Of a DNA stretch of 64,000 nucleotides, positions 15,435-47,369 are shown one piece after another (position 1 is the first letter of the stretch; each line of letters opens with the position of its first letter). Under the pieces are notes generated by a model. The model had not been told where the DNA came from and did no database searches. It saw nothing but the letters and a program-made list of their open reading frames with translations. The stretch lies in the NCBI RefSeq assembly GCF_009498035.1, contig NZ_CP034550.1, positions 5,766,001-5,830,000 on the forward strand, read 5' to 3'. This DNA is from Saccharothrix syringae. GTDB lineage: Bacteria > Actinomycetota > Actinomycetes > Mycobacteriales > Pseudonocardiaceae. A program made the position numbers and the translations under genes.

Positions 15435-15451
15435 CGGCCAGGGTGTCCGGC

Positions 15452-26680: not shown

Positions 26681-26714
26681 CGGGTGGGCGGGTCCGCGGG
26701 GACCCGCCCACCCG
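26681..26714 (-). terminator. Hairpin between precursor and cyclase genes
   Basis: C-GGGTGGGCGGGTCC / GGACCCGCCCACCC-G forms a perfect 15-bp stem with a 4-nt GCGG loop. It lies 12 bp after the first precursor's stop and 61 bp before lanC. No U-tract follows, as is common in high-GC actinomycetes. It probably acts as a partial terminator or mRNA-stabilising structure that keeps precursor transcript above cyclase transcript. Confidence 0.7.
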
Positions 26715-26725
26715 GTCGCGCTCGG

Positions 26726-26902: not shown

Positions 26903-26923
26903 TCTCGTTCTCCCTTCAGATCT

Positions 26924-26970
26924 GGTCGGCCGCTAGTGCCGTTCCCACCCGGACGGGTGAGGGGTCGGTG
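26924..26970 (-). repeat. Duplicated copy of the lanB 3' end between the two precursor genes
   Basis: The 47 bp from 26924 match 27221-27267, the last codons of the dehydratase gene, with only a few changes. The copy sits upstream of lanA1 exactly as the original sits upstream of lanA2. The two precursors therefore arose by tandem duplication of a unit made of the lanB tail, ribosome-binding site and lanA. Confidence 0.85.
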
Positions 26971-27022
26971 GTGCCGCCGCGGGGGCCGGTGTGCGGGGTG
27001 GGACGTCCCGGGGCGGCGGTCG

Positions 27023-27196
27023 TCAGGAGGCGTCCTTGTCGTAGCAGAAGGCGATGAGCGAGCACAGCGCGACGCTGCAGTCGTCCTCGCTGAACGCCAT
27101 GGGGTTCGCGTCGGACAGCCGGACCTCGCTGATGCGCTCCTCCAGGTCGGTGATCAGGCCGTCCAGCTCACCCGGTTCCAGGATCGCCTGGTCCAT
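27023..27196 (-). CDS. lanA: Lanthipeptide precursor A2
   Basis: 57 residues, ATG behind AAGGGAG, 15 bp after the dehydratase stop. The leader is nearly identical to A1. The core keeps the same spacing: S36-EDD-C40, S41-VAL-C45, S46-LIAF-C51, then YDKDAS. The Ser/Cys frame is fixed while loop residues differ, as expected for a pair of related modified peptides, possibly two-component. No GG-type protease site is obvious; the change after MAF suggests the core starts near S36. Confidence 0.88.
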   Translation of the reverse strand: MDQAILEPGELDGLITDLEERISEVRLSDANPMAFSEDDCSVALCSLIAFCYDKDAS

Positions 27197-27211
27197 GTCG
27201 TTGTCTCCCTT

Positions 27212-30779: not shown

Positions 30780-30970
30780 GTCACATCCCCGGGGGTAGGT
30801 GTGTGCCAACCGGATTACGGCGTCGGGGCGTTGCTAAACACCGCTGCGACGTGCGTTCACCTCATCGTGTCAACTTATGCCCCGTTCGTGATGTCCAAGA
30901 TCACCCGACCGAGGAATTGCCCCCCACCGCCGTGCCGTGCTCCGCAACGGTCCAATCAGGACGGTCGCCC

Positions 30971-32839: not shown

Positions 32840-33274
32840 GTGGCCGTGCACGCCCACGACTTCTTCCGCCTCGTCGACGCGCTCGCCGACGTCGACCAGG
32901 CCAAAGGCGACCAGTACACGACGCTCACCGTGCGCGGCAAGCGCTTCGGCTACTACTGGCCGCGCACCCACACCGCCGGTCTCAAGCAGACCCTCTCCGA
33001 GCAGCGCGCCCTCGTCGCCGAACGCCCCGACGTCTTCGAGGAGCAGTTCACCGCAGGCGGCTTCGGCTGGGTCGTCGTCCACCTCGACGGCATCGAACTC
33101 GACGAACTGTCCGAACTGGTCTTCGAGGCGTGGCGGCTGTCCGCGCCCGAGGAGCTGGTGGCCGAGGTGCCGGACTGGGCCGAGCAACCGCCCCTCCAGG
33201 CGCGATCGCGCGCCGGGCGGAGCAGGTCTACGGGCAGTCCTCGTCGCTCCGCGCCACCACGACCGGCGCGCTGA
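32840..33274 (+). CDS. MmcQ/YjbR-family DNA-binding-like protein
   Basis: GTG start behind GGGGGGA, 144 residues. The first 115 or so match the YjbR fold (DFFRLVDALADVD, RGKRFGYYWPR, GGFGWVVVHLDGI, FEAWRLSAPEELVAE). The last 25 residues are Arg/Ser/Pro-rich and overlap the 3' end of the convergent Sph3-like gene by 47 bp, so the original stop may have been lost and the tail may be non-native. Role unknown for the family. Confidence 0.8.
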   Translation: MAVHAHDFFRLVDALADVDQAKGDQYTTLTVRGKRFGYYWPRTHTAGLKQTLSEQRALVAERPDVFEEQFTAGGFGWVVVHLDGIELDELSELVFEAWRLSAPEELVAEVPDWAEQPPLQARSRAGRSRSTGSPRRSAPPRPAR

Positions 33275-34748
33275 ACTCGTCCACGCCGTCGTAGCCGTTG
33301 AACACCGCCACCTGCGTGGCACCCGCCGAATCGCCGAACGCGCCGACGGGCACCCGCCAGGTGACCACCCGCCCGTCCTCCACCTGCTCGGCGTCGACCA
33401 CCGGCTCCCACGCCCACCCCGGTCCGACATACCGGTAGAGCACGCCCTCCTCGATCATGTGGTCCACCCCGGCGGGCAGCCCCGGCGGCAGCACCCAACC
33501 GCCCGTCGCGTCGCCGTCGGTGTCGATGAACACCCTGCGGTGGGTGAAGTCCCTGGCGAAGGTGGCCCGGTAGCTGGCGGTCGTCGGGCCGAGGCACGCA
33601 GCGGGGTCCCGCACCACCGGGGTCGGGGTGACCACGGTGACCGGCGCGCCGGGGGCCGACGCGTTGCCCGCGACGTCGCGGGCGCGGACGGCGAAGGTGT
33701 AGGTCGTCCCGGGTAACAGGTCGGTGGCGGTGAAGGCGGTGTCGTAGGTGGTGCCCACCGGCACGCCGTCCCGCAGCACCTCGTAGTCGGCCACCGCCAC
33801 GTCGTCCAGCGCCGACCGCCACCGCAGGACCGCCTGCCACGGCGTGGCGACCGCGGTGGTGCCGCGCGGCGGGGCGGGCGGGCTGGTGTCCACCACGCCC
33901 GCGACCTCGCCCAGCTCGGCGTCCCAGTAGCCGGCGATCGAGTCCCAGGTGTACGGGCCGAAGGACCGGTCGGTGACGTAGACGTACCCCGCGCCGTTGG
34001 CCTTGCTGCGGCGCACGACCTCGGCCATGTCCTGCGCGGTGGGCACGCCGTGGACCAGGTGCCAGAACTTGGCCCGGTCCTGGTGCCCCCGCTCCCACGC
34101 GGGCGGGGTGTGCGCCAGGTAAGCCTGGTGGTCGCCCTCGAAGGACAGGATGGTGTCGGCGACGGCGTCGTAGCACTGCTCGGTCGCGGTGCCGGGGTTG
34201 ACGGCGATGTGCGCGTACGGGTGGGCGCCGCGGACGTGGTCGGCGATCGCGGCGTAGTGGGCGACGTACCCGCCGTCCGGGCCGCAGGTGTGCAGGGCCT
34301 GGTCCAGGAACACGCCGTCCACGCCGTGGCCGCCGTAGAGCGCGTACCAGTCGTCGACGTCCTGCCGGACCTGGGCGGCCCACGCCTCGGCCGAGGTCTC
34401 GCCGGTCCTGGTGCGGTGCGCGCCCTGGCCCACGTCCACGCCGAAGTAGCCGGTGTCGACGTAGACGAGCACCTTGGCGCCGGAGTCGTGCACCGCCCCG
34501 ATCGCGTCGGCCCACGCGTCGGAGTAGGGCGCCTCCGGCCTGCTCAGGCTGCCGTTGACCACCACGATGCCGGTGGCGGGCCGGTTCTGGGCCAGGCGCC
34601 GGAACGCGGTCAGGCCGTCGGGGGTCGCCGGGCTCCAGTAGGCGGGCACCGCGGCCCACTGGTGGGTGACCGCGGGACCGGGGTTCAGCAGGGTGAACGT
34701 CGTGACCACCGCCCCCACGCGGGCCAAAGCGGTTCTCAGGCGCGCCAT
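33228..34748 (-). CDS. Sph3-like (GH135, spherulation-specific family 4) glycosidase with fibronectin-III domain
   Basis: About 506 residues from ATG 34748; a longer frame to 34877 lacks coding character. After a signal-like N-terminus, the domain begins AAVPAYWSPATPDGLTAFRR and continues TGIVVVNGSLSRPEAPYSD, then VLVYVDTGYFGVDVGQG and GVDGVFLDQALHTCGPDGGY, a TIM-barrel family exemplified by Aspergillus Sph3. A fibronectin-III domain follows (from about residue 300), then a beta-rich C-terminal domain of about 120 residues. In fungi this family cleaves N-acetylgalactosamine linkages of galactosaminogalactan. It is divergent from the deacetylase operon. Extracellular. Confidence 0.85.
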   Translation of the reverse strand: MARLRTALARVGAVVTTFTLLNPGPAVTHQWAAVPAYWSPATPDGLTAFRRLAQNRPATGIVVVNGSLSRPEAPYSDAWADAIGAVHDSGAKVLVYVDTGYFGVDVGQGAHRTRTGETSAEAWAAQVRQDVDDWYALYGGHGVDGVFLDQALHTCGPDGGYVAHYAAIADHVRGAHPYAHIAVNPGTATEQCYDAVADTILSFEGDHQAYLAHTPPAWERGHQDRAKFWHLVHGVPTAQDMAEVVRRSKANGAGYVYVTDRSFGPYTWDSIAGYWDAELGEVAGVVDTSPPAPPRGTTAVATPWQAVLRWRSALDDVAVADYEVLRDGVPVGTTYDTAFTATDLLPGTTYTFAVRARDVAGNASAPGAPVTVVTPTPVVRDPAACLGPTTASYRATFARDFTHRRVFIDTDGDATGGWVLPPGLPAGVDHMIEEGVLYRYVGPGWAWEPVVDAEQVEDGRVVTWRVPVGAFGDSAGATQVAVFNGYDGVDEFSAPVVVARSDEDCP

Positions 34749-34922
34749 GCGGGCCAGTTTCGACCGCTCCCGACGAACGGGCAATCGGTCGGAAGGCAGG
34801 ACCCGGATTAGGCCGCCTGCCGGTATGCGAAAGAATTCGCCGATGCCGTCCGCCGCGATCCGGACAACGCACGACAAGAAACGCGAAACATACTCACATG
34901 CCCCCTGGGCAGCGCGTCGGGA

Positions 34923-34948
34923 CCTTTTCCGCCGATGCGCGGAAAAGG
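34923..34948. promoter_or_regulatory. Inverted repeat in the divergent promoter region of the exopolysaccharide locus
   Basis: CCTTTTCCGC-CGATGC-GCGGAAAAGG is a perfect 10-bp inverted repeat with a 6-bp centre, inside the 497-bp region (34749-35245) between the Sph3-like gene and the deacetylase operon. The region is distinctly less GC-rich than its surroundings and includes GGAATTTAACGTTCATTAC and GCGTTAATAACGAG, plausible promoter sequence. No short gene was recognised in it. Confidence 0.55.
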
Positions 34949-35245
34949 CTCCGACGAGGCGTCGTCCGGGTCGCCGGGAATTTAACGTTCATTACATCCG
35001 ACCCGGCATCCCCGCGCGATCGTCCCGGTAGCGGGGCTACGTTACCGCTGCGTTAATAACGAGACGGTATCGAACGGGACCCACCCACCGGTTGTTCCAA
35101 TCGGCGGCACTTACCACGAATTGCGGTACCGCCCCTCCGGAATGCGCCCTACCTTCTCGACGGGAACAGATCGGAGAACTACCGCGCACCCGGCGTGGGG
35201 ACCGCTGCTGTGCGGAATCAGGTAACTCGACCGGGAGGTCTTACC

Positions 35246-37342
35246 TTGAGAACACGTCCTTCGCGCGCGAGAAAATGCGCGGTAGCGCTGCTCGCGCCCG
35301 TGCTCGCCGCGGCCCTCGCGCCCGGCACCGCGGCCGCCACGCCGGGATCGCACCGGCACCCCTTCATCAAAGCCGCGGTCGCGCGGCCGCAGGCACCGCC
35401 CCCGGTGCGGCTGACACCGGTCAACGGCCCGCTCCCCGCCGAGGCCGAGAGCACGCCGTTCGCGCCGGCCGACCAGGTCGCGCTGCGGCCCCTGGTGGTC
35501 GCCCTGGACGGCACCGACTTCGGCCTGCCCACCTGGCGCGCCGTGCTCAACCGGATCGGCACGCCCTACGACGTGCTGCTGGCCAAGGACGAACCGCTCA
35601 CCGCGCAGCGGCTGGTCCGCTCGGACGGCGTCGGCCGCTACAACGCCGTCCTGCTCACCGACAACGCCCTGCTCTACCGCAACAGCTCCGGCGGGTACGT
35701 CAGCGCGTTCGACGACACCGAGTGGCGGACCCTCTGGGCCTACGAGCGCAGCCACCGGGTCCGCCAGGTCTCGCTGTTCACCTCGTGGGGCACCTTCCCC
35801 GAGGACCACTGCCTGCGCCCCGGCGTCGAGGGCGAGGTCAACCCGCCGGTGCAGGCGGCGCTGACCACCGCGGGCGCCGCCCTGTTCGACCACCTGGAGG
35901 CCAACGCGCTGGTGCCGATCAGCGACTCCTACGCCTACCGGTCGGTCCTCGCGCCGAACTGCGCGGCGCAGCCCCTGCTGACCGTCGGCACCCACGTGCT
36001 GGGCGTGACCTCGACCTCGACCGACGGGCGGGAGCGCGCCGCGCTGACGTTCTCCTCCAACGAGAACCTGGCGCAGACCGACATGCTCGCCCCCGGCCTG
36101 CTGCGCTGGGCGACCCGGGGCGTGCACCTGGGCGAGCAGCGGCACTGGCTCAACGCCGACGTGGACGACTGGTTCAACTCCAGCGACCACCTCTACCCCG
36201 ACGGCCGCCTGGAGACCGACCCCGGGTTCCGGCTCAGCGGCACGGAGGCCGCCGCGGTCGCGGTGCAGCAGCGGACGCTGCGGGCGGAGCACCCGGTGGC
36301 CGCCGGGTTCACCCTGAACCTGCCCTACAACGGCGGCGACCTGAACACCGCGGCGCCGTCGCGGTGCTCCTCCCTGCTCACGCCCGACCCGCTGACCAGC
36401 TACTCCCGGTGCCTGTCCCGCGAGTTCCGCTGGGTCAACCACACGGTGAGCCACCCGGAGCTGAACGCGACCGACTACGCGACCAGCCGCGGCGAGATCG
36501 CCGACAACCTGACCATCGGCCGCAACGCCGGGCTGACCGTGCCCACCGACGTGCTCAAGACGCCCGCCTACTCGGGGCTGGGCGTCTACAACCCGGACCC
36601 GAACGCGCCGGACACCGACCCGCCGACGGACTTCGGGCTGGCCCGGTCGAACCAGGCCATGCTCGACGCCGCGCGTGACGTGGGCGTGCGCTACCTGCAC
36701 GGCAACATGTCCTTCGCCAGCCACCGGCCGGCCTGCTTCAACTGCGGCACCTACCACCCGCTGCGGCCCGAGCTGCTGGTGGTACCGGACTGGCCGACCA
36801 ACATCGGCTACCAGACCACCGCGCCCGCCGAGCTGACGCTGTTCTACAACCGGCTCTACGGCCCCAACGGCAGGTTCCCGTACCACGACCACGACCTGAC
36901 CTACGCCGAGGTCGTCCACTACGAGTCCGAGGTGGCGCTGCAGCACGTCATGACCGGCTCGGTCTACAGCCACACCCTGCACCAGGGCAACCTGCGGCAG
37001 TACGGGGTCGGGCGCAGCCTCACCTTCGACTGGCTCAAGGCCGTGGTCGACAAGTACGACGCGCGGTACCGGGTGCCGTTGAAGAACCCGGACTGGCCGA
37101 CCCTGGCGCGGTACGTGCAGGCCAGGAACGCGCACTTCGCCGAATTGGCCGCGGGCGGCGACGCGATCTGGGACCGGGCGGCCAACACCGTGACCTACAC
37201 CGCGGCCACCGCGGGCTCGCTGTTCATCACCGGTGCCACCGCCTCCGGTGCCGAGACCGAGCGGTACGGGCAGGACAGCGTCACCAGGATCACGACCAGG
37301 GCGGGCACCCGCGTCACGGCCGCGGTGGACACGCGTCGATGA
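35246..37342 (+). CDS. Exopolysaccharide deacetylase, CE18/Agd3-like (copy 1)
   Basis: About 698 residues from a TTG behind GGGAGGTC; upstream in-frame starts lack a ribosome-binding site. Signal peptide (VALLAPVLAAALAPGTAAA). The first 250 or so residues form a beta-rich domain; the NodB-like catalytic region has D305, D307 and D308 in NADVDDWFN and H399/H403 in WVNHTVSHPELN, then LHGNMSFASHRPACFNCGTY and HTLHQGNLRQYG. The whole pattern matches the fungal galactosaminogalactan deacetylase Agd3, founder of CE18. It should remove acetyl groups from GalNAc outside the cell, making the polymer cationic. First gene of a coupled operon. Confidence 0.85.
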   Translation: MRTRPSRARKCAVALLAPVLAAALAPGTAAATPGSHRHPFIKAAVARPQAPPPVRLTPVNGPLPAEAESTPFAPADQVALRPLVVALDGTDFGLPTWRAVLNRIGTPYDVLLAKDEPLTAQRLVRSDGVGRYNAVLLTDNALLYRNSSGGYVSAFDDTEWRTLWAYERSHRVRQVSLFTSWGTFPEDHCLRPGVEGEVNPPVQAALTTAGAALFDHLEANALVPISDSYAYRSVLAPNCAAQPLLTVGTHVLGVTSTSTDGRERAALTFSSNENLAQTDMLAPGLLRWATRGVHLGEQRHWLNADVDDWFNSSDHLYPDGRLETDPGFRLSGTEAAAVAVQQRTLRAEHPVAAGFTLNLPYNGGDLNTAAPSRCSSLLTPDPLTSYSRCLSREFRWVNHTVSHPELNATDYATSRGEIADNLTIGRNAGLTVPTDVLKTPAYSGLGVYNPDPNAPDTDPPTDFGLARSNQAMLDAARDVGVRYLHGNMSFASHRPACFNCGTYHPLRPELLVVPDWPTNIGYQTTAPAELTLFYNRLYGPNGRFPYHDHDLTYAEVVHYESEVALQHVMTGSVYSHTLHQGNLRQYGVGRSLTFDWLKAVVDKYDARYRVPLKNPDWPTLARYVQARNAHFAELAAGGDAIWDRAANTVTYTAATAGSLFITGATASGAETERYGQDSVTRITTRAGTRVTAAVDTRR

Positions 37343-39432
37343 GGACGAGGCTGCCGCGATCGGCTCCCCCGGTGCACGCGCCGCTGCTGGCGGTCCTGCT
37401 GCTGGCGCTCGGCGCGATCACCGTCATGAGCCCGCCCGCCCCGTCGGGCGCCGGACCGACCGGGGCGGGCGCGGCGCCGCCCGTCCCGGACCCGGTCCCG
37501 GTCGCGGTGCCGGCCAAGCAGCGAATCCCCGTGCGCCGGGCCGGGCCGCCGACCGGCCCGGCCGCGCGGGGCGACCGGGTGGCGCTGCGCCAGCTCGTGG
37601 TCGCCACGGGCCAGGACGACTTCGGCCTGGCCGCCTGGCGGTCCGTGCTCGACGCGATCGGCACGCCGTACGACGTGCTCGTGGCGGGCGCCGAACCGCT
37701 GACCGCGGACCGGCTGGTCGGCGCGGACGGCGTCGGCCGGTACAGCGCGGTCCTGCTGACCAGCGGCGCGCTGCTGCGACCCGACGCGGACGGCGCCTAC
37801 ACCTCCGCGCTGGACGACGGGCAGTGGCAGGTCCTGCAGGACTACGAGCGCGCCTACCGGGTCCGGCAGGCGGCGCTGAACACCCACCCCGGCACCTACC
37901 CGGACGACCTGTGCCTGCGGTCCGGGTCCGAGGGTGCGGTGAGCGGGGCGCCGGTGCCGCTCTCGCTCACCCCGGCCGGCCGGCGGGTCTTCGACCACCT
38001 CAGGCCCGAAGCCTCGGTGCCGCTCACCAACGCCTACCTGTACCGGACGCTGGTCGCCGACGGCTGCGGCGCCGAACCCCTGCTGTCGGTGGAGGACCGG
38101 GTGGCCGCGGTGACGAGCCGGGCGCCGGACGGCCGGGAGCGCCTGGCGCTCACCTTCTCGCTGAGCCCGGGCTCGACCGCCGAACTGCTGCTCGGCCACG
38201 CCGTCGTGCGCTGGGCGAACCGCGGGGTGCTGCTCGGCGAGCGGCGGCACTGGTTCAACGTCGACGTCGACGACTGGTTCAACGTCACCCAGCGCCTGCG
38301 CCCCGACGGCACCGCGGAGCTGTACCGGCTCGGCGCCGGTGACGCCGTGGCCGTGGACGCGCAGCAGCGCGGGCTGCGCGAGCGCCACCCGGTGGCCGCC
38401 GGGTTCACGCTCAACCTGCCCTACAACGGCGGCCGGTTCGACGCCGCGGCGCAGGCCACCTGCGCCGGCACCGGCGGGGGCGACGCGCTCAGCGGCTGCT
38501 CCAAGGCCCTGGTGGACCGGTTCCGGTGGATCAACCACACGGTCAACCACCCCCAGATGAACGACACGCCCTACGACACGAGCCGGAACGAGATCACCGA
38601 CAACCTGCGGATCGCGGCGGCCGCCGGGCTGCCGGTGCCGGCGGCCGTGCTCAAGACCCCGGAGTACTCGGGGCTGGGCGTGTTCGACCCGGCGGCGGGC
38701 TCGTCCGGGCCGCCGACCGACTTCGGGCTGGCCCGGTCGAACCAGGCGCTGCTCGACGCCGCGCACGACGTGGGCGTGCGCTACCTGCACGGCAACATGT
38801 CCTTCGAGGGCCACCGGCCGACCTGCTTCAACTGCGGCGTCCACCACCCGCTGCGGCGGGAGGTGCTGGTCGTGCCCGACTGGCCGACCAGCATCGCCTT
38901 CGAGGCGACCGAGCCCGCCGAGCAGGTGGCCCTCTACAACCACGAGCGCGGCACCGGGCTGACCTACGAGCAGGTCGTCGCCGCCGAGGCCGCGGTGGCG
39001 CTGCAGCACCTGCTGGGCGGGTCGGTGTACGCGCACACGCTGCACCAGGGCAACCTGCGCGAGTACCAACCCGGCCGCAGCCTGGCGTTCGACTGGGCCG
39101 AGGCCGTGGTGGCCGCCTACGACGCGCTGTGCGCGGTGCCGCTGGAGAACCCCGACTGGCTCACCCTGGCCCACTACGTCGAGGCGCGGACCGCGCACTT
39201 CGCCGAGCTGGCCGAGCACCGCGACGCGGTCTGGGACCGGGCCACGGGCGCGGTCACCTACCCGGCGGCCCGCGACGGCGCCCTGTTCGTGACCGGGGTG
39301 GAGACCAGGGAGGCGACCGGGGCCGACCAGGGTTCCCCCGACGAGGCCGAGGTCTACGGCTCGGACCAGGTGTCGCGGATCGGGCTGACCGCGGGCGAGC
39401 AGGTCGTGCTGACGGCGAGCCCCCGCCCATGA
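37339..39432 (+). CDS. Exopolysaccharide deacetylase, CE18/Agd3-like (copy 2)
   Basis: 697 residues, ATG overlapping the first copy's stop (ATGA). Clear paralogue of copy 1 along its full length, with D309, D311 and D312 in NVDVDDWFN, H400/H404 in WINHTVNHPQMN, and LHGNMSFEGHRPTCFNCGVH. The N-terminal hydrophobic segment (LLAVLLLALGAITVMS) without a clear cleavage site suggests membrane anchoring, unlike copy 1. This could split the work between a tethered and a released deacetylase (inference). Confidence 0.85.
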   Translation: MRTRLPRSAPPVHAPLLAVLLLALGAITVMSPPAPSGAGPTGAGAAPPVPDPVPVAVPAKQRIPVRRAGPPTGPAARGDRVALRQLVVATGQDDFGLAAWRSVLDAIGTPYDVLVAGAEPLTADRLVGADGVGRYSAVLLTSGALLRPDADGAYTSALDDGQWQVLQDYERAYRVRQAALNTHPGTYPDDLCLRSGSEGAVSGAPVPLSLTPAGRRVFDHLRPEASVPLTNAYLYRTLVADGCGAEPLLSVEDRVAAVTSRAPDGRERLALTFSLSPGSTAELLLGHAVVRWANRGVLLGERRHWFNVDVDDWFNVTQRLRPDGTAELYRLGAGDAVAVDAQQRGLRERHPVAAGFTLNLPYNGGRFDAAAQATCAGTGGGDALSGCSKALVDRFRWINHTVNHPQMNDTPYDTSRNEITDNLRIAAAAGLPVPAAVLKTPEYSGLGVFDPAAGSSGPPTDFGLARSNQALLDAAHDVGVRYLHGNMSFEGHRPTCFNCGVHHPLRREVLVVPDWPTSIAFEATEPAEQVALYNHERGTGLTYEQVVAAEAAVALQHLLGGSVYAHTLHQGNLREYQPGRSLAFDWAEAVVAAYDALCAVPLENPDWLTLAHYVEARTAHFAELAEHRDAVWDRATGAVTYPAARDGALFVTGVETREATGADQGSPDEAEVYGSDQVSRIGLTAGEQVVLTASPRP

Positions 39433-40889
39433 CCGTTCCCGCGGTGCGCCCCGTCACGGCGGACCCCCCGGACCCGGACGACGGGCTGCGGGTCGCGCTG
39501 GTCTCCGAGGGCACCTACCCCTACCACCCCGGCGGCGTGAGCCTGTGGTGCGACCAGCTCGTGCGCGGCATGCCCGAGCACGCGTTCACCGCGGTGGCGC
39601 TGACCGTGGACGGCACCGAGCGCCCCTCCTGGCCCGCGCCCGCCAACCTCGTCGGGGTGGTCGACATCCCGCTGTGGGGCGGGTCGCCCGGCCCGGCCCG
39701 GCGCGAACCGGAGGGGTTCGCGGCGGCCCACGACGCGTTCCTGCGGTCCTTCGTCCCGCACGCCGAGGGCAGCGCCGAGGCGTTGCTGGTGGCGCTGCGG
39801 CGCCTGTTCGAGCTGTCCCGCTCGGCCGACCTCGGGCCGGCGCTGGTGTCCAACGACGCGGTGGGCAGGCTGGTCGACGTCACCGCCGAGCGGTGCGGCA
39901 GTCCCCTGCCGCTGCACCACGCGGTGGCGGTGACCGACCAGCTCGAACACATGCTGCGGCCGCTGTGGCACCCGCCGGTCCGGGTCGACGTGTGCCACCT
40001 GGCCATGAACGGCCTGAGCGCGCTGGTCGGCCTGGCGGCCAAGTGGGCGCACGGCACACCGCTGCTGATGTCCGAGCACGGCGTGTACCTGCGGGAGCGC
40101 TACCTCGGCGCGGCCGAGCAGGGCGGGCCGCGCGCGGTCCGGGCACTGGTGCTGGGCTTCCACCGGGCGCTGGCCGGCGCCGCCTACCGCGCCTGCGACG
40201 TGCTGGCGCCGCACTCGGACTACAACCGCCGGTGGCAGCTGCGCAACGGCGCGGACGAGGCGCGGGTGAACACGATGTACAACGGCATCGACCCCGACGA
40301 CTTCCCGCCCGCCGCGGGTGAGCCGGACGAGCCGACGATCGTGTTCGTGGGCCGGATCGACCCGCTCAAGGACGTGCGCACGCTGATCCGGGCGTTCGGG
40401 CTGGTCCGGGCGGAGCTGCCGCGGGCGCGGCTGCGGGTGTTCGGCCCGGTCACCGCGGCCAACCGGGACTACCACGCGGACTGCGTGCGGCTGGTCGAGC
40501 AGCTCGACCTGGCGGGCGCGGCCGTGTTCGAGGGCCGGGTGCCCAACCAGGTCGACGCCTACCACGCCGGGCACGTGGTGGCGCTGACCAGCGTGTCGGA
40601 GGGCTTCCCCTACTCCCTGGTCGAGGCGATGTCCACGGGCCGGGCCACGGTGTGCACGAGCGTCGGCGGGGTGCCCGAGGCGGTCGGCGGCGCCGGCCTG
40701 CTGGTGCCGCCGCGCGACCACGCGGCCGTGGCGCGCGCCTGCCTCCGGCTGCTCACCGACGGCGAGCTGCGCGACCGCCTGGGCCGCGAGGCCCGGCAGC
40801 GGGTGCTGGAGCGCTTCACCCTCCAGCGCTGGAACGACGGCTACCGGACCCGGTACGCCGAGCTGGCGCTGCCGGGGGGCGCGGGATGA
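39429..40889 (+). CDS. PelF-like GT4 glycosyltransferase
   Basis: 486 residues, start overlapping the preceding stop (ATGA). The N-terminus VALVSEGTYPYHPGGVSLWC is the hallmark of PelF-type cytosolic transferases. The GT-B C-terminal half has FVGRIDPLKDVRTLIRAF and the EX7E motif E391-GFPYSLV-E399. PelF uses UDP-sugars for Pel polymerisation, so this is the likely polymerase for a hexosamine polymer. The product is inferred from context. Confidence 0.88.
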   Translation: MTVPAVRPVTADPPDPDDGLRVALVSEGTYPYHPGGVSLWCDQLVRGMPEHAFTAVALTVDGTERPSWPAPANLVGVVDIPLWGGSPGPARREPEGFAAAHDAFLRSFVPHAEGSAEALLVALRRLFELSRSADLGPALVSNDAVGRLVDVTAERCGSPLPLHHAVAVTDQLEHMLRPLWHPPVRVDVCHLAMNGLSALVGLAAKWAHGTPLLMSEHGVYLRERYLGAAEQGGPRAVRALVLGFHRALAGAAYRACDVLAPHSDYNRRWQLRNGADEARVNTMYNGIDPDDFPPAAGEPDEPTIVFVGRIDPLKDVRTLIRAFGLVRAELPRARLRVFGPVTAANRDYHADCVRLVEQLDLAGAAVFEGRVPNQVDAYHAGHVVALTSVSEGFPYSLVEAMSTGRATVCTSVGGVPEAVGGAGLLVPPRDHAAVARACLRLLTDGELRDRLGREARQRVLERFTLQRWNDGYRTRYAELALPGGAG

Positions 40890-42244
40890 GCGTGACCGAC
40901 CCGGTGGAGCGGGTGCGGGCGCTGCTGCCCGACCCCGTGGACGAGCTGCAGGTGGCGGCGCTGCTGGAGAGCCAGGGCGTCACCGACGCGGTGGCGCTCG
41001 ACGACCACGGCGCGGCCGACGTGTTCGAGCTGGCCGAGCAGGTGTACGCGCGGCTGGCCGCGGAACCGACGGCCGAACCCGAACCCGAGCCGCCGCCGGA
41101 GCGCCCGCGGGCGTGGCTCGACGCCGGGCACGGCCCGCTGTACCTGATGCCCACCACCGCCTACCCGGCGGTGTTCGCGGTGCTCGGCGACGCGGAGGCG
41201 TTGCGCGCCCTGCTGTTCGGCACCTCCACCGGCTGGGTGTGGGGCGCGGTGACGAGCTGGGTCGCGCACCGGCTGGCCGGCGCGGGCGCGGCGGCCAGGG
41301 CGCTGGTCGTGCTGGGCGGCCTGGGCACCGCCGCGGCGGCGCTCGGCGCGGTGCTGCTGGCGCTGCTCACCGGCGGCGGACCGGGCACGGTGCTGTTCGT
41401 CGCGGTGCTGGCCGCCTTCCAGGCCGCCGCCGGCGCGCTGCTGCTCCACCGCGCGGAGGGCCGGCTGCTGCTCGCCGCGCTGCCCGCAGGCGTGGCCGGG
41501 CTGGTCCACCTGGGTTCCGGCTACGCCGACGCGCTCGTCGTGCCGGTCCTGCTGGCCGGCGCCGCCACCGCGGTGCTGGCCCTGCACGGGGCGTGGCGCA
41601 CCTGCCGGGCCGCCGGGCCGGTCGGCCCGGGGCGCGTGCCACCGCTCGGGGTGCTGGCGCGCGGCGCGCTGCCCGGTGCGGCGCACGCGGCGGCGGGCGC
41701 GGCGCTCCTGCTGCACACCGACGCCCGCCACGTGCTGGGCCCGCTGGACCTCGCGATCGCGGTGGCGCCGCTGGCGCTGGGCATGGGCGTGGTCGAGTGG
41801 CGCGCCAACCGGCTGTTCGACCGGGCCGGGCGCCTGCTGCGCACCACCGGGCGCCCCGAGCGGTTCCGCGCCGCGGTGTGGCGCCTGCTGCTGCGCGAGT
41901 ACGCCACGTGCCTGCTCGCGCTCGGCTCGGTCGCCCTGGTGCTGATGCTGGTGCTGCGGTGGTCCGGCGCGCTCACCGCGCCCGGCGCGCTGCTGGTCGA
42001 CGGGCACGTGGTGCTCGGCGGCGCGTACTTCCTCGGCTTCGTCCTGGTCCGGACGGGGGGCGCGGCCCTGGCACCGCTGCTCACGTCGGGGGTGCTGCTG
42101 ATCGACGTCGCGGTGGTCGCGGTCGTCGGCGACGCGGTGCCCGACGTCGACGTGCCGGTGTTCCTGGCCTGCGGAGCCCTCCTGTCCCTCCTGCTGCTGG
42201 CGGCGCTCCACCGGAGCGTCGGCCAGGTTCGCCACTACCGATGA
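40886..42244 (+). CDS. Polytopic membrane protein in the PelG position
   Basis: 452 residues, start overlapping the glycosyltransferase stop. An N-terminal cytosolic segment of about 95 residues (a small helical domain, then an acidic Pro/Glu linker) precedes about eleven hydrophobic helices. Size and position after a PelF-like gene match PelG, the membrane partner through which Pel is exported. Sequence resemblance to PelG cannot be judged by eye. It most likely forms the export path or activates the transferase. Confidence 0.72.
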   Translation: MSVTDPVERVRALLPDPVDELQVAALLESQGVTDAVALDDHGAADVFELAEQVYARLAAEPTAEPEPEPPPERPRAWLDAGHGPLYLMPTTAYPAVFAVLGDAEALRALLFGTSTGWVWGAVTSWVAHRLAGAGAAARALVVLGGLGTAAAALGAVLLALLTGGGPGTVLFVAVLAAFQAAAGALLLHRAEGRLLLAALPAGVAGLVHLGSGYADALVVPVLLAGAATAVLALHGAWRTCRAAGPVGPGRVPPLGVLARGALPGAAHAAAGAALLLHTDARHVLGPLDLAIAVAPLALGMGVVEWRANRLFDRAGRLLRTTGRPERFRAAVWRLLLREYATCLLALGSVALVLMLVLRWSGALTAPGALLVDGHVVLGGAYFLGFVLVRTGGAALAPLLTSGVLLIDVAVVAVVGDAVPDVDVPVFLACGALLSLLLLAALHRSVGQVRHYR

Positions 42245-42278
42245 GATGCCACCACCGATGAGATAAGGAGGACCCGGT

Positions 42279-43019
42279 ATGCACGCGGTGATACTCGCCG
42301 GCGGCCGTGGGGTGCGCCTCCGCCCCTACACGACGGCACTGCCCAAGCCCCTGGTCCCGATCGGCGAGGAGTACGCGATCCTCGACATCATCCTGCAACA
42401 ACTGCGCGCCCGCGGGTTCCGGCGCGTCACCCTGGCGATCGGCCACCTCGGCTCGCTGATCCGGGCCTTCGTCGGCGACGGCTCGCGCTGGGACCTCGCG
42501 GTCGACTACAGCGAGGAGGTCAAACCGCTGTCCACCATCGGGCCGCTGCTGAACTTCCTGGACCGGCTGCCCGAGCACTTCCTGGTGATGAACGGCGACG
42601 TGCTCACCGACCTGGACTACACGGCGCTGCTCGCGCACCACACGGCCAACGGGGCGCCGCTGACGGTGGCCACGTACCAGCGCAAGGTGAAGATCGACTT
42701 CGGCACGCTGTCCACCGAGCAGGGCCGGATCGTGCACTTCGTCGAGAAGCCGGAGCTGTCCTACGGCGTCAGCATGGGCGTGTACGCGATGTCCCGCGAG
42801 ACGCTGGCGCCCTACCCGCGGGACGTGCCGTTCGGCCTGGACCAGCTGGTGCTCGACCTGCTGGCCCGCAGCCGCCGCCCGGCCGCCTACGAGTTCGAGG
42901 GCTACTGGCTCGACATCGGCCGCCCCGACGACTACGACGAGGCCAACCGCTGCTTCGAGCAGGCGCGGTCGGCGCTGCTCCCGGGACCGCGGCGGGCGCC
43001 GCTGGGAGCCGTGTCGTGA
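42279..43019 (+). CDS. Sugar-1-phosphate nucleotidyltransferase
   Basis: 246 residues, ATG behind AAGGAGG. The N-terminal signature VILAGGRGVRLRPYTTALPKPLVPIG, VMNGDVLTDLDY with the metal aspartate, VEKPELSYGVSMGVYA, and YWLDIGRPDDYDEAN identify an NTP_transferase-family enzyme of the mannose/glucose-1-phosphate type, without a hexapeptide acyltransferase tail. It supplies an NDP-sugar for the polymer or its decoration. A 10-bp sequence (CCGATGAGAT) occurs twice in the 34 bp upstream. Confidence 0.88.
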   Translation: MHAVILAGGRGVRLRPYTTALPKPLVPIGEEYAILDIILQQLRARGFRRVTLAIGHLGSLIRAFVGDGSRWDLAVDYSEEVKPLSTIGPLLNFLDRLPEHFLVMNGDVLTDLDYTALLAHHTANGAPLTVATYQRKVKIDFGTLSTEQGRIVHFVEKPELSYGVSMGVYAMSRETLAPYPRDVPFGLDQLVLDLLARSRRPAAYEFEGYWLDIGRPDDYDEANRCFEQARSALLPGPRRAPLGAVS

Positions 43020-43906
43020 GCCCCACCCGGGTGCTGGTGTTCGGCGCCACCGGCTACCTCGGGCGGCGGGTCGTCGCCGCGCTCACCGCCCGGCCGGGGG
43101 TGGAGGTCGTCCCGGTGCGGCGCGGCGGGCCGCCGGGCGGCGACCACGTCCGGCACGACCTGGTCAGCACCGATCCGGCGGACCTGCTCTCCTCGACCGC
43201 GCCGGACGCGGTGGTCAACTGCACCGGGCGGCTCGGCGGCACCGCGACCGAGCTGGTCGCGGCCAACGTGACGGCGGTGGCGCGCCTGCTCGACGCGCTG
43301 CCCGCGGCCACCCGGCTGGTCACCCTGGGCTCGGCGGCCGAGTACGGCGTGGTGCCGGTGGGCCGGCCGGTCGGCGAGGACGCGCCCGAGAAGCCGGTCA
43401 GCGCCTACGGGGCCACCAAGCTGTCGGCCACCGGCCTGGTGCGGGCGGCCGTGGCGGCGGGCCGGGCGGACGCCGTGGTGCTGCGGGTGTTCAACCCGGT
43501 CGGGGCGGGCGCGCCCCACGACACCGTGCTGGGCCGCGCGGTGGCGGCCATCCGCAGTGCCGCCACCGGCGTCCGGCTCGGCCCGCTGGGCGCGCACCGG
43601 GACTTCGTCGACGTCCGCGACATCGCCGAGGCGGTCGCCCTGGCCGCCCTGGCGACCGGCGCGCCCGGCCCGGTGCTCAACATCGGCAGCGGCACGGCGG
43701 TCGTGGTCCGGGACGCGGTGAAGCTGCTGGTCGAGGAGTCCGGGTTCACCGGCCAGGTCGTCGAGTCCGACCCCGCGCCCGACCGGTCCCGCGCGGTGGA
43801 CTGGATCGCGGCGGACGTCACCCGCGCCCGCGAGGTGCTGGGCTGGCGACCGCGGCACGACCTGCGGGCGTCGGTGCGCGACCTCTGGGCGGGTGGCTCG
43901 GGGTGA
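43016..43906 (+). CDS. NAD-dependent epimerase/dehydratase (extended SDR)
   Basis: 296 residues, GTG overlapping the upstream stop. N-terminal GATGYLGRRVV for NAD binding, a serine region TLGSAAEYG, the catalytic Y-x3-K in YGATKLS, and VDVRDIAEAV. It converts a nucleotide sugar, in line with the adjacent nucleotidyltransferase. The exact reaction (4-epimerase, reductase or dehydratase) is not decidable. Last gene of the plus-strand operon; a strong terminator follows. Confidence 0.85.
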   Translation: MSPTRVLVFGATGYLGRRVVAALTARPGVEVVPVRRGGPPGGDHVRHDLVSTDPADLLSSTAPDAVVNCTGRLGGTATELVAANVTAVARLLDALPAATRLVTLGSAAEYGVVPVGRPVGEDAPEKPVSAYGATKLSATGLVRAAVAAGRADAVVLRVFNPVGAGAPHDTVLGRAVAAIRSAATGVRLGPLGAHRDFVDVRDIAEAVALAALATGAPGPVLNIGSGTAVVVRDAVKLLVEESGFTGQVVESDPAPDRSRAVDWIAADVTRAREVLGWRPRHDLRASVRDLWAGGSG

Positions 43907-43912
43907 GGGCCG

Positions 43913-43947
43913 GGCGGGTGTGCCGGTGGGGTGCCGGCACACCCGCC
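43913..43947 (+). terminator. Terminator of the exopolysaccharide operon
   Basis: GGCGGGTGTGCCGG / CCGGCACACCCGCC form a perfect 14-bp stem with a 7-nt loop, starting 7 bp after the epimerase stop. The same stem sequence recurs in the terminator of the convergent operon. Confidence 0.85.
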
Positions 43948-44129
43948 TCCCCGTTCGGCGGGCCGGGTGCGCCGGGTTCGGCGGGCCAGGGGTGCCGGGT
44001 GCGCCGGCCGAGGGGTGTTCGCGGGTGTGACGCGCGGGTCGAGGACCGGGTCGAACGGCGGGTGGTCGAACGGCGCGCCGGTCCGGCCGGGCTCACCCCG
44101 GCGCGGGACCGGTGGACGCCCCGGGACCC

Positions 44130-44164
44130 GGGCGGGTGTGCCGGCCGAACCGGCACACCCGCCC
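44130..44164 (-). terminator. Terminator of the convergent nucleotide-sugar operon
   Basis: GGGCGGGTGTGCCGG / CCGGCACACCCGCCC form a perfect 15-bp stem with a 5-nt loop, 4 bp beyond the stop of the minus-strand epimerase. The stem is identical to the one at 43913-43947. Between them, 43948-44129 holds only short GC-rich repeats. Confidence 0.85.
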
Positions 44165-44168
44165 TCTC

Positions 44169-45119
44169 TCACCCCGCGTGGTCCCGGTACCACTCGTAGG
44201 TCTGCCGAACGCCCTCCTCCAGCGGCACGGTCGGCTTGAACCCGGTCATCGCCCGCAGCAGGGTCAGGTCGGGGCAGCGGCGGTGCACCGAGCCGCGCGG
44301 CGCGGGCACCTGCTCCAGCACCGGGTCGTGGCCGGCGACGTCGAGCACCAGCCTGGCCAGGTCGCCGATGTTGGTCTCGGCCGTGTCGTCGCCGATGTGC
44401 ACGACGCGGCCGACGGCCTCGTCCGCCGCCATCAGCCGCACCACCGCCTCGACCGCGTCGTCCACGTGGCAGAACGCCCGGTACTGGTCGGTGCCGTAGA
44501 CCCGGAACGGGTCCTCGCGCCGGGCCGCGCGCAGCGACAGCTCGGGGATCACGTGGTCGGCGCCCATCCGCGGCCCGTAGACGTTGTGGAACCGGCCGAT
44601 CACGGCCGCGACGCCCTTCGCCCGCCCGGTGTGCGCGACCGCGGCCTCACCGAGGACCTTGCTCACGCCGTAGGCGGCCCTGGGCGCGGTCACGTCCGCC
44701 ACGACCAGCGGGACCGACTCGGGCGTCGGCACCGGCACCACACCGGAGTCCACGCCGCCGGCGTAGGTCTCGCTGGTGGAGGCGAAGAACAGCCTGTGCC
44801 GGGGCGTGACCCACGCCAGCGCGTTGAGCACGACCAGGGTGTTGACCCGGATCACCCGCTCCGGGTCGCGCTCGACGTTGCGCACCCCCACCACCGCGGC
44901 CAGCAGGTACACGTGGTCGACGTCGTCGGGCAGCGCGTCGAAGGCCGCCGGGTCGGTGAGGTCGGCCGAGACCACCGGCACGCCCAGCAGCCCCAGCTCG
45001 GTGTCGTCGCGGCCGCGGGAGAAGTCGTCGACGACGACCACGTCGTGGCCGTCGGCCAGCAGGCGGCGGGTGAGGTGCACCCCGATGAACCCGGCGCCGC
45101 CCAGCACCAGCGCCCTCAC
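44169..45119 (-). CDS. NAD-dependent nucleotide-sugar epimerase/dehydratase
   Basis: About 316 residues; GTG at 45119 overlaps the upstream dehydrogenase stop. LVLGGAGFIGVHLTRRLLA binds NAD; the active site has STSETYAGG and the Y-x3-K in YGVSK; NVYGPRMG and YRAFCHVDDAVEAVVRL are typical of UDP-glucose/UDP-GlcNAc 4-epimerases and related dehydratases/decarboxylases. Candidate for making UDP-GalNAc, as Uge3 does in fungi, or for processing the uronate from the neighbouring dehydrogenase. Confidence 0.87.
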   Translation of the reverse strand: MRALVLGGAGFIGVHLTRRLLADGHDVVVVDDFSRGRDDTELGLLGVPVVSADLTDPAAFDALPDDVDHVYLLAAVVGVRNVERDPERVIRVNTLVVLNALAWVTPRHRLFFASTSETYAGGVDSGVVPVPTPESVPLVVADVTAPRAAYGVSKVLGEAAVAHTGRAKGVAAVIGRFHNVYGPRMGADHVIPELSLRAARREDPFRVYGTDQYRAFCHVDDAVEAVVRLMAADEAVGRVVHIGDDTAETNIGDLARLVLDVAGHDPVLEQVPAPRGSVHRRCPDLTLLRAMTGFKPTVPLEEGVRQTYEWYRDHAG

Positions 45120-46429
45120 CGGGCCGCCCCCGGCTCGTAGCCCAGGGCGGCGTAGCGGACGCCGTGCCGGGTGACCCGGTCGGGTTCCAGCAGCCGCCAG
45201 GAGTCGTAGAGCAGGCGGATGCCGGACCCCGGCAGCAGCGCGTCGACGTCCAGGTCCTGGTACTCGCGGTGGTCGGTGATCACCAGCACCGCGTCGGCGG
45301 CGGCGAACCCGGCGGCCAGGTCGACCGGCTCGCCCCCGTAGCGGCGGATGACCCCGGCGTCCACCAGCGGGTCGTGGCCGAGGACCCGCAGGCCCGCGTC
45401 GGCGAACACCGGCGTCATCGAGGCGATCGGCGTGCCCCGCATGTCGTCGGTGGCGGGGCGGCCCTTGTAGGCCCAGCCGAGCACCAGCAGCGCGTCGCCG
45501 GGCCGGGCGCCCATCAGCTCCACCACGCGTTCGGCGACGTGCCGCGGCAGGTCCTCGTTCACCTTCCGGGCGGCACCGACCAGCGGCAGCTCGCGGCCCA
45601 CCCGCCCGGCGACCGACAGCAGGATGTACGGGTCCTTCGACAGGCAGCCGCCGCCCACGTAGCCGGGCCTGGCCAGGTCGGGGCGCGGGTAGTCCAGGTT
45701 GGCGGCCCGGATGACCTCCAGCGGGTCGAGCCCCAGCCGCTCGGTCAGCCCGGCCACCTCGTTGCCGTAGGAGTAGATCACGTCGGTGTGGCAGTTGTTG
45801 GCGAGCTTGACCAGCTCGGCCGTCTCCAGGTTCGACACCGGCACCACCCGGTCGGTCAGCCGGCCGAACAGCGCGAGCCCGAGCCGCAGGCTCTCGTCGT
45901 CGAGCCCGCCGACGACCTGCGGCAGCTCGACCAGCTCGCGCAGCGCCTGCCCCTGGATGGTGCGCTCGGGCGCCATCACCAGCCGCGCCGAGCCCCACGC
46001 GTCCACCAGCCGCGGCAGCACGACCGACCTGGTGGCGCCCACCGGCACCGTGCTGCGGACCACCACCAGGGTGTCCGGCGAGCACCGCTTGGCGATGTGC
46101 TCGGCGGCCGCGGCCAGGTTGCCCAGCCTGGGTTCGTGACCGGTCTCGTCCACGGGGGTCGAGACGCAGACCACCGCCGCGTCCACGCCGCCGTCGGGCA
46201 GGTCGGGGCCCAGGAAGATGCGCCTGCCCACCCACTCCCCGAAGGTCTCCTCGACACCCGGTTCGAAGATGTGCGCCCGGCCCCGCGACAGCGAGTCCAG
46301 CACGGCCTGCTGGGTGTCGACGCCGTGCACCTCGAACCCGCGCCGGGCCAGCGCGGCGGCCAGCGTGAGGCCGACGTAGCCCATCCCGACGATCCCGATC
46401 CGGTGCAGCTCCGGTGGTCCTTCCGTCAC
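45116..46429 (-). CDS. UDP-sugar 6-dehydrogenase (UDP-HexNAc/UDP-Glc dehydrogenase family)
   Basis: 437 residues with the three expected domains: NAD-binding RIGIVGMGYVGLTLAAALA, the central domain with VVVRSTVPVGATR, the catalytic cysteine in GYVGGGCLSKDPYIL, and a C-terminal UDP-binding domain (LGWAYKGRPATDDMRGTP). The PERTIQGQALRELVELPQVVGG stretch resembles WecC/UDP-N-acetylhexosamine dehydrogenases more than plain UDP-glucose dehydrogenase. It makes an NDP-uronate, so the polymer may carry acidic residues. It overlaps the downstream epimerase. Confidence 0.87.
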   Translation of the reverse strand: MTEGPPELHRIGIVGMGYVGLTLAAALARRGFEVHGVDTQQAVLDSLSRGRAHIFEPGVEETFGEWVGRRIFLGPDLPDGGVDAAVVCVSTPVDETGHEPRLGNLAAAAEHIAKRCSPDTLVVVRSTVPVGATRSVVLPRLVDAWGSARLVMAPERTIQGQALRELVELPQVVGGLDDESLRLGLALFGRLTDRVVPVSNLETAELVKLANNCHTDVIYSYGNEVAGLTERLGLDPLEVIRAANLDYPRPDLARPGYVGGGCLSKDPYILLSVAGRVGRELPLVGAARKVNEDLPRHVAERVVELMGARPGDALLVLGWAYKGRPATDDMRGTPIASMTPVFADAGLRVLGHDPLVDAGVIRRYGGEPVDLAAGFAAADAVLVITDHREYQDLDVDALLPGSGIRLLYDSWRLLEPDRVTRHGVRYAALGYEPGAAR

Positions 46430-46463
46430 ATCCGCTCCTCGTTGGTCCGGCGCGTCCGACGGG

Positions 46464-47369
46464 TCACCCGCAGGGCGCGCCGACCCGGTCCAGCGCCTGC
46501 ACGGTCACGTATCCCTCGAAACCCTCTTCGCGGTACCGGCGGCACGCCGCCGCGACGTTGTCCGGCCGCACCGCGTAGTCCACCGCCAACACCGTCTTGC
46601 CGGCGTCGCGGATCTCTCTGGTGGCCGCCAGGTTCGCCGCGCAGTACGAGGCGGTGCACGGCCGGTCGGTGGCCAGGAAGAACAGCTCCTCCACGCCGAT
46701 GCCGTCGATGGCGTCGAGGTAGCCGGGGTGGGCCAGCAGCTCGGGCGAGTTCTGCGGGAACACCAGGAACCCGGGGCGGGCGGCCTCGGCGTGCCCGGCG
46801 ATCCGGGCGATCAGGTCGACCATGCGCCTGCCCAGCTCCGCCCGGTCCAGGCCGGGCACCAGGTCCTGGTCGATCTCCTCGTAGGCCAGCGGGGTGTCCA
46901 GGTAGGCGCCGTCGAACCCGGCGGCCAGCGCCCGGTCCAGCCGGGGCCGGACGGCCAGCTCCCACCAGCTCGGCTCCCAGTAGCGGACGAAGTGCTCGCC
47001 GGGCCAGCTCGCCCACTCGTTGAGGACCAGGCGGGCCGGGTCGGCCGCGACGGCGGCGTGCTCGGGCCGGAACGACTCGATCGCCCCGATTTCGAAGTAG
47101 GCCAGCACGATCTTCCCGGATGCCCGCAGCCGGGACACCTCGGCGCGGGTGAAGTACGAATTTCCGGCATCCCGCGCCAAGTCGACCACGACGTAGCGGA
47201 AAGAGGACGAAGCCAATTCTTCGAGCCCGCCGTCCCGATAACCCTGCAACTGGTACGCGAAACCGTCCGGATGTTTCTCCACCACCCTTTGCGGAGCACA
47301 CCCGGGTGCACCGAGGAGCAGGACCACCGGGAGGACGACGAAAACGCCGGGAAACCGTCGACCCACCAC
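46464..47369 (-). CDS. GH114 endo-alpha-1,4-polygalactosaminidase, lipoprotein
   Basis: About 301 residues; GTG at 47369 (or 47366) fits the signal, while the longer frame to 47579 has no coding character. The hydrophobic start ends in a lipobox-like GAPGC. The TM1410/GH114 barrel shows FRYVVVDLARDAG, IVLAYFEIGAIESF, AGFDGAYLDTPLAYEEID, FLVFPQNSPELL and GIGVEELFFLATD, with conserved Asp/Glu at strand ends. The family cleaves alpha-1,4-linked galactosamine, as fungal Ega3 does. It is 34 bp upstream of the dehydrogenase in the same operon, consistent with polymer trimming at the cell surface. Confidence 0.87.
   Translation of the reverse strand: MVGRRFPGVFVVLPVVLLLGAPGCAPQRVVEKHPDGFAYQLQGYRDGGLEELASSSFRYVVVDLARDAGNSYFTRAEVSRLRASGKIVLAYFEIGAIESFRPEHAAVAADPARLVLNEWASWPGEHFVRYWEPSWWELAVRPRLDRALAAGFDGAYLDTPLAYEEIDQDLVPGLDRAELGRRMVDLIARIAGHAEAARPGFLVFPQNSPELLAHPGYLDAIDGIGVEELFFLATDRPCTASYCAANLAATREIRDAGKTVLAVDYAVRPDNVAAACRRYREEGFEGYVTVQALDRVGAPCG

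Follow-up and report, generated by a model that had tools for sequence, protein, structure and literature searches.

Which polymer, if any, is made by a compact locus of the actinomycete Saccharothrix syringae in which hydrolases and deacetylases resembling those of fungal galactosaminogalactan (GAG) lie beside a polymerase of the bacterial Pel type? The window analysed comprises 64,000 bp (bases 5,766,001-5,830,000 of a 10.93-Mb genome assembled as one contig), and the coordinates of the locus were confirmed as positions 33228-47369 of this window, about 14 kb. With a probability of about 0.72, the product of the locus is a secreted exopolysaccharide of the Pel/GAG kind, partly deacetylated and rich in alpha-1,4-linked N-acetylgalactosamine (GalNAc) and galactosamine (GalN), made via a PelF-type polymerase, a membrane protein here called MEM, two CE18-like deacetylases and two hydrolases. 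A preliminary description of the DNA had predicted a secreted, partly deacetylated, GalNAc-rich polymer, and this is still the best-supported functional reading; the role proposed there, in hyphal adhesion or biofilm, is hypothetical. The ten genes of the locus are the following (positions in the window):

33228-34748, reverse strand: Spherulin4/GH135-like hydrolase with an fn3 domain (PF12138 127.5 bits, cut-off 30.2; fn3 28.3 bits)
35195-37342, forward strand: CE18a, Agd3-like deacetylase with CBM87 (PF25116, CBM87_Agd3, 38.0 bits, cut-off 27.6)
37339-39432, forward strand: CE18b, tandem Agd3-like deacetylase (PF25116 53.2 bits, PF25115 43.5 bits, cut-off 27.6 for both)
39429-40889, forward strand: PelF-type GT4 polymerase (NF038011 150.9 bits, PF11997 158.8 bits)
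40886-42244, forward strand: MEM, multi-spanning membrane protein encoded immediately downstream of pelF (PelG-like place and size; hydropathy)
42279-43019, forward strand: sugar-1-phosphate nucleotidyltransferase, NTP (PF00483 122.3 bits)
43016-43906, forward strand: SDR1, a short-chain dehydrogenase/reductase (SDR) of the NDP-sugar epimerase/reductase family (PF01370 117.9 bits)
44169-45119, reverse strand: SDR2, UDP-glucuronate decarboxylase (UXS)-like SDR (best structure UXS1 4lk3, E 5.4e-37)
45116-46429, reverse strand: nucleotide-sugar 6-dehydrogenase (TIGR03026 292.6 bits, cut-off 189.8)
46464-47369, reverse strand: GH191-like endo-galactosaminidase (PF03537, the Pfam GH114 model, 110.9 bits; structure 9ep5, E 2.3e-75)

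The module is real, its gene order is conserved and it is present twice in the genome. The forward operon (35195-43906) carries the genes of CE18a, CE18b, PelF, MEM, NTP and SDR1, and converges with a reverse operon that runs from 47369 down to 44169 and encodes the GH191-like barrel, the dehydrogenase and SDR2. The Spherulin4 gene is divergent from the forward operon; this compact arrangement is as had been stated. Overlaps of 4 bases between CE18a and CE18b, CE18b and PelF, PelF and MEM, NTP and SDR1, and the dehydrogenase and SDR2 genes suggest coupled translation. The paralogous locus L005 (2,896,000-2,915,999 of the same genome, at 9509-19445 of that stretch) reads CE18a-CE18b-PelF-MEM-NTP-SDR1 with a convergent GH191-like gene; no Spherulin4, dehydrogenase or SDR2 gene was found in the stretch. 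In the 10.93-Mb genome, PF03537 has three matches at E ≤ 0.01, two of them over the cut-off, one at each CE18 locus, and a single Spherulin4 gene was found, at the window locus. Clustering by chance was rejected, since the sole Spherulin4 protein and the only two PF03537 proteins over the cut-off all lie at the window locus or its paralogue.

The polymerase assignment agrees with the PelF-like GT4 transferase predicted earlier, and its NF038011 score exceeds the equivalog cut-off of 100 bits. Further support comes from the union in one locus of three families with characterised members active on GalNAc/GalN polymers (PMC7229062, PMC12054363). For the Sph3-like hydrolase, the earlier prediction was likewise borne out: a 7-row profile of the Spherulin4 protein and its relatives matched the Sph3 structures 5d6t/5c5g (E 1.5e-28), while the single sequence gave no match to them at E ≤ 1. 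D149 and E204 are invariant in 7/7 rows and form a putative catalytic pair, which together with the PF12138 match points to GH135. The hydrolase is probably secreted, and ATG 34748 is a likelier start of its gene than TTG 34877.

The barrel protein of the reverse operon had been described as a GH114 endo-galactosaminidase of the family of fungal Ega3. Its match to the Pfam GH114 model stands, but its nearest structures are 9ep5 and TM1410 (E about 1e-24), on which GH191 was founded in 2025, with the active site named there (PMC12054363); fungal Ega3 (6oj1) reached only E 0.012. The Ega3-type GH114 identity was dropped, as the GH191 founders are much closer. D159 and E228 of the barrel, numbered on a 302-residue reading starting at 47372, align with the active-site residues D156 and E225 of TM1410 when counted by hand, in line with a place in GH191. 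Judged by eye, the enzyme is perhaps a lipoprotein. In relatives, a small second GH114-like protein of about 233 amino acids adjoins SDR2 (L007:16408-17115(-), L041:2691-3575(-), L044:14380-15264(+) and others); that of L007 scores 24.8 bits, below the Pfam cut-off of 27.

The two Agd3-like deacetylases that had been predicted were also recovered. CE18b combines CBM87 with an Agd3-like CE domain, both over the cut-off, and CE18a has CBM87 alone over the cut-off. CE18b as a single sequence matched the Agd3 structure 6nwz with E 1.6e-18, and for an 8-row CE18 profile (A3) 6nwz was the only PDB structure matched at E ≤ 0.01 (E 1.3e-24). The base Asp, the metal-binding Asp/His/His and the acid His (D377, D378, H510, H514 and H668 of Agd3) are kept in 28/28 aligned sequences, and the catalytic D,D,H,H,H is also retained in CE18a.

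The position of the CM3 residue Arg613 of Agd3 was mapped by its 55-residue spacing to H668 in 6nwz and by profile alignment. It is occupied by Asp in 14/19 and by Cys in 5/19 sequences of the clade to which the window proteins belong, and by Arg in 9/9 of the other sequences; both window copies have Asp (D514 in CE18b). As the CM3 arginine is gone, the proteins are named CE18-like, a divergent clade, instead of plain CE18. A Val of the nine other sequences is Lys in all 19 of the window clade (K439 in CE18b, an MT3-like Lys), within L-K-T-P-x-Y-S-G; one row of the clade has G for P, and G is also found in 6/9 of the others. Met666 of Agd3 is Thr in 19/19 sequences of the clade, but since Met is kept in only 3/9 of the others, this change is not special to the window clade. 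The 19 sequences share one branch, so the Arg613/Lys switch counts as a single event and not as repeated evidence. CM3 is conserved in all fungal and most, not all, bacterial Agd3 homologues; Arg613 and Met666 are both needed in Agd3, and R613 is integral for activity (PMC7229062). In CE4 enzymes, the MT3 motif R-P-P-Y-G has its Arg held to the Asp of MT1, and the MT4 motif D-W has its Asp held to the His of MT5; Agd3 is without MT4, and its Arg comes from elsewhere (PMC10967932). Compared with these patterns, the window clade resembles CE4 at the sequence level: K439 would correspond to MT3 and, in 14/19 sequences, D514-W515 to MT4.

In the tree of 28 CE18 sequences (DEACETYLASES), CE18a and CE18b from the five loci of family f1 in which the CE18 genes are whole form one set (100/99); f1 is the family of the window genome, presumably Pseudonocardiaceae like its nearest named relatives. 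Within the set, the five CE18b copies form one clade (100/100), indicating a tandem duplication early in this family. The order of the CE18a/CE18b split is less certain, because the CE18a side is not a clade and the fork is drawn open. Both copies are retained in 5/5 of these loci; in the sixth, L008, CE18 is in broken frames. When inspected by eye, the N-termini of CE18a show A-x-A-like end sites in 5/5 loci, like those of a cleavable signal peptide, and those of CE18b show a hydrophobic stretch followed by T-x-x-S-P, with no A-x-A-like site in 5/5 loci. On these termini, CE18a looks secreted and CE18b membrane-anchored.

MEM stands in the place of PelG by position and has the PelG size noted in the preliminary description, yet membership in PelG is unsupported by profiles. 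Neither Pfam nor NCBIfam gave a match to MEM, which had no hit on the PelG model PF16933 (cut-off 29) and reached a probability of 0.1 against PelG by profile-profile comparison. An N-terminal soluble domain (A-A-x-L-E-x-x-G ... F-x-L-A) is followed by 9 hydrophobic segments (simple hydropathy), compared to 7-11 across 21 rows of the MEM family (the window and L073 included) and 10 in each of two PelGs. The AlphaFold2 model from 3 sequences is all-helical, with a confidence (pLDDT 50.7, pTM 0.49) too low to judge it against the 12-helix MOP-superfamily fold expected of a PelG. MEM and deep-branching intermediates (L054 and L073; also L086, L087 and L092) match as one family with probability 99; after removal of the N-terminal domain, the membrane parts match the intermediates weakly (probability 36, E 4e-4). 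One of 15 aligned family members, the distant L073, matches the PelG model with 20.8 bits, below the cut-off, and no match to that model was found for L054, L086, L087 and L092. Profile comparison gave no link between the intermediates and PelG (probability 0.3-0.4), with a poor PelG profile of our own: it has 5 rows, of which L063 is a 49-residue fragment and probably not PelG, and L059 and L060 are untrimmed long frames. Based on Pfam, the search of the genome itself and profile-profile comparison (probability 0.1-0.4), the PelG identity of MEM was set aside; a very distant kinship, to which the L073 score would relate, is neither shown nor excluded. The N-terminal domain also occurs alone in other proteins, of family f18 (G719:C1:3040647-3041051, G753:C4:90870-91385, G499:C1:165594-166001 and others), and may therefore be a mobile domain.

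Taken together, these features allow a tentative scenario, to which we give distinctly less than even odds. The active site of the CE18-like clade would have been re-wired to the CE4 pattern (CM3 Arg lost, Lys in K-x-P at MT3, Asp-Trp in 14/19), and a tandem duplication would then have split deacetylation into a membrane-anchored and a secreted part, in a Pel-like system with MEM as a new exporter family in the place of PelG.

The nucleotide-sugar enzymes had been thought to include a 4-epimerase candidate. This did not hold: on the GalE model (cut-off 262.3 bits) SDR1 scores 75.5 and SDR2 76.6 bits, and a GalE in the locus was rejected. A galE gene over the cut-off lies outside the locus, at 1.80 Mb of the genome. 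NTP is nearest to mannose-1-phosphate guanylyltransferases (best structure 7d72, mannose-1-phosphate guanyltransferase beta, E 4.4e-28), and the best structure for SDR1 is the GDP-6-deoxy-lyxo-hexulose reductase 2pk3 (E 2.7e-21). SDR2 aligns with E120, Y147, K151 and R277 of the UXS1 chain (counted by hand), which we take to be the catalytic residues. The best structure for the dehydrogenase is CalS8 (4xr9, E 3.8e-52), presumably of the glucose dehydrogenase type. With SDR2 nearest to UXS1 and the dehydrogenase nearest to CalS8, a UDP-glucuronic acid (UDP-GlcA)/UDP-xylose route is suggested.

The distribution of the module was examined in sampled genomes, with few candidates scored per genome, so that all counts are lower bounds; genes of relatives were called with a script based on G+C at codon positions and from stop-to-stop frames, not from annotation. 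Within the phylum, the 8-row CE18 profile matched in at least 13 of 396 genomes, with 15 loci, all of which were read; L005, the paralogue in the window genome, had been missed at the first look of this survey. PelF lies in the same gene run in 14/15 of the CE18 loci; it is followed by MEM in 12 and by canonical PelG in two (L051 and L052). A GH135-like or GH191-like gene is present in the fetched stretch of 14/14 PelF-bearing CE18 loci, two of which have weak matches on the GH191 model (L044 36 bits, L081 27 bits). The 4-row MEM profile found at least 12 of 397 genomes of the order, and all of its 14 places have CE18 and PelF adjoining. With a wider MEM profile including the intermediates (7 rows), 20 of 396 genomes were found, some with the N-terminal domain only. 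PelG over the cut-off was found in 7/396 genomes of the phylum, one (L072) being a 30.9-bit partial match away from these genes. The dehydrogenase-SDR2 pair occurs in 12/15 loci examined in families f1 and f15; two of the other three, L045 and L046, are truncated by the ends of their contigs, and the third, L005, is without the pair. NTP and SDR1 were not seen in the fetched stretch of 8/14 PelF-bearing CE18 loci. Distance matrices of CE18, PelF, MEM, NTP and SDR1 correlate with r 0.86-0.98 (19-24 loci, 0/999 permutations as high), which organismal descent alone would also produce; untrimmed frames were used and, of tandem pairs, the frame with the lower start (CE18b for L005). A genome-contig scan gave three named loci, in Actinocrispum wychmicini, an Actinosynnema sp. 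and Kibdelosporangium philippinense.

Some loci of relatives have a composition of their own. In L051 and L052 (family f32), CE18 immediately follows PelF and canonical PelG, and Spherulin4 is nearby, a mixed Pel/GAG locus; upstream in L051 are a GAF/GGDEF gene and a HEAT/TPR gene, which resemble pelD and pelE in their position. L008 (Kibdelosporangium philippinense, 9833-13067) is reduced: frames of NTP, SDR2, the dehydrogenase and Spherulin4 remain beside the broken CE18, and PelF, MEM and SDR1 were looked for there without a find. In L081 (G681, 7937-10200), CE18 is split into several frames, with PelF frames and a MEM relative adjoining.

Several observations weigh against a galactosamine polymer of the Pel/GAG kind. 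A plain GalNAc polymer needs neither the nucleotidyltransferase and SDR1, which are similar to GDP-sugar enzymes, nor the UXS-like SDR2. The esterase domain of CE18a reaches 24.1 bits on PF25115 (Agd3_CE), under the cut-off of 27.6, and Arg613 and Met666 are replaced in both window deacetylases. The GH191 enzyme of T. maritima was inactive on Aspergillus GAG (PMC12054363). Among the ten genes of the locus, no GAF, GGDEF or TPR/HEAT gene that could stand for PelD or PelE was found with Pfam and NCBIfam, and PF16933 found no PelG in the window genome at E ≤ 10. Finally, no PelF was found in the stretch fetched around the CE18 of L053; the genome of L053 has PelF and a MEM relative on another contig (L073).

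These points lend some weight to other explanations. The sugars made by NTP, SDR1, SDR2 and the dehydrogenase, such as UDP-xylose or an unusual hexose, could be the main constituents of a heteropolymer or other glycan with little or no GalNAc, as the UXS1 alignment of SDR2, the nearest relatives of the dehydrogenase and of NTP, and the frequent dehydrogenase-SDR2 pair would suggest. We consider this unlikely, as the CE18-like, GH135-like and GH191-like proteins and PelF all indicate GalNAc/GalN, L005 does without the pair, and many PelF-bearing CE18 loci show no NTP or SDR1. That the CE18 proteins of the window type merely bind the polymer, having lost deacetylase activity with the CM3 arginine, would fit the clade-wide loss of a residue integral to Agd3 and kept in all nine other sequences, the loss of Met666 being less telling; it is quite unlikely in view of the base, metal ligands and acid kept in all 28 aligned sequences, the retention of both copies in all f1 loci with whole CE18 genes, and the Lys that these 19 sequences have in the place of CE4 MT3. 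An attack on galactosamine polymers of fungi or other bacteria, instead of work on the producer's own, is highly unlikely. Polymer-making moulds do live in soil alongside actinomycetes, and judged by eye the hydrolases look secreted, neither of which is direct evidence, but synthesis genes would have no place in such a locus, and PelF is tied to CE18b and MEM by its 4-base overlaps and to CE18 by nearly all gene runs.

Under the preferred reading of a Pel/GAG-kind exopolysaccharide, PelF would polymerise UDP-GalNAc in the cytoplasm, the precursor being supplied by the galE found elsewhere in the genome, and MEM would carry the chain across the membrane. CE18b at the membrane and secreted CE18a would then deacetylate it to a cationic polymer, of which the GH135-like hydrolase may trim acetylated and the GH191-like hydrolase deacetylated stretches. 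A UDP-GlcA/UDP-xylose branch is probably contributed by the dehydrogenase and SDR2, so that a pentose or uronic acid may decorate the polymer. If this is true, filamentous soil bacteria make galactosamine exopolysaccharides with machinery mirroring the fungal GAG cluster; the CE18-like clade would be a natural test of the active-site wiring that a GalNAc deacetylase needs, and the locus would offer a candidate replacement of PelG and an enzyme set that may act on GAG/Pel biofilms. Three labels are likely corrected: the barrel is GH191 and not GH114, PelG is not recognisable, and an SDR is UXS-like.

Both flanks of the locus look unrelated to it. On the left are a lanthipeptide dehydratase-type gene, a YjbR-family gene and, by eye, a FAD-enzyme-like gene. 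A lanthipeptide-type cluster at 25511-30809 of the window includes a Lant_dehydr_C protein (29751-30809, PF14028 73.4 bits) and, by eye, a LanC-like gene along with two small genes that are nearly identical and look like precursor genes (26726-26902 and 27023-27196). The right flank has a small gene without a Pfam match, followed at 48006-51490 by an acetate kinase gene (PF00871 333.7 bits) adjoining a phosphoketolase-like gene (the latter by eye).

The Aspergillus galactosaminogalactan cluster consists of uge3, sph3, ega3, agd3 and gtb3 (PMC4817252). It has been claimed that every one of its functional classes recurs in the window locus, which is correct for the deacetylase, two galactosaminidase-type hydrolases and the glycosyltransferase, whose gene roles match. 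Different from the fungal cluster, the window locus has no GalE-type epimerase, a GH191-like barrel and two deacetylases, and its polymerase and membrane protein are separate genes, whereas Gtb3 is described as a transmembrane glycosyltransferase (PMC4817252). Missing PelD and PelE had been regarded as fitting a Gram-positive. This view is too simple in the light of Bacillus cereus, a Gram-positive with pelDEADAFG (PMC7112168), and of L051 and L052, where CE18 lies beside PelF and PelG. With the B. cereus system the window locus shares the PelF polymerase, a membrane partner after it and a three-domain deacetylase that looks membrane-anchored; it differs in being without PelD/PelE and a recognisable PelG, and in deacetylases that are CE18-like and not CE26 (PMC7112168, PMC13254593). 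Compared to known GH191 endo-galactosaminidases, the catalytic Asp/Glu are conserved, but the window enzyme lies in a biosynthetic locus and its activity is putative (PMC12054363).

The closest known systems are bacterial. Agd3 homologues were reported from 45 bacterial species, and 30 of the 35 in the tree lie in or near carbohydrate-enzyme operons (Bamford et al. 2020, PMC7229062). A glycosyltransferase and a multi-spanning membrane protein are common to all bacterial agd3 operons identified there; the presence of a GH114 gene is called "highly consistent", and Spherulin-4 is found in some actinobacterial operons. As these operons were described in 2020, the gene combination was already known and is not a first. 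The window locus has in common with them CE18, a cytoplasmic glycosyltransferase, a multi-spanning membrane protein and a GH114-type enzyme, along with the Spherulin-4 of some actinobacteria. In the passages of PMC7229062 compared here, there is no mention of a tandem CE18, of an Arg613 loss with an MT3-like Lys, of GH191 (defined later) or of a UDP-xylose-type pair. For the tandem CE18 pair and the Arg613/Lys switch, no report was found in the open-licence literature searched or in these passages. New compared to these systems are the conserved-order module present twice in one genome, the tandem deacetylase pair and the clade-wide loss of Arg613 with a Lys at the MT3 position.

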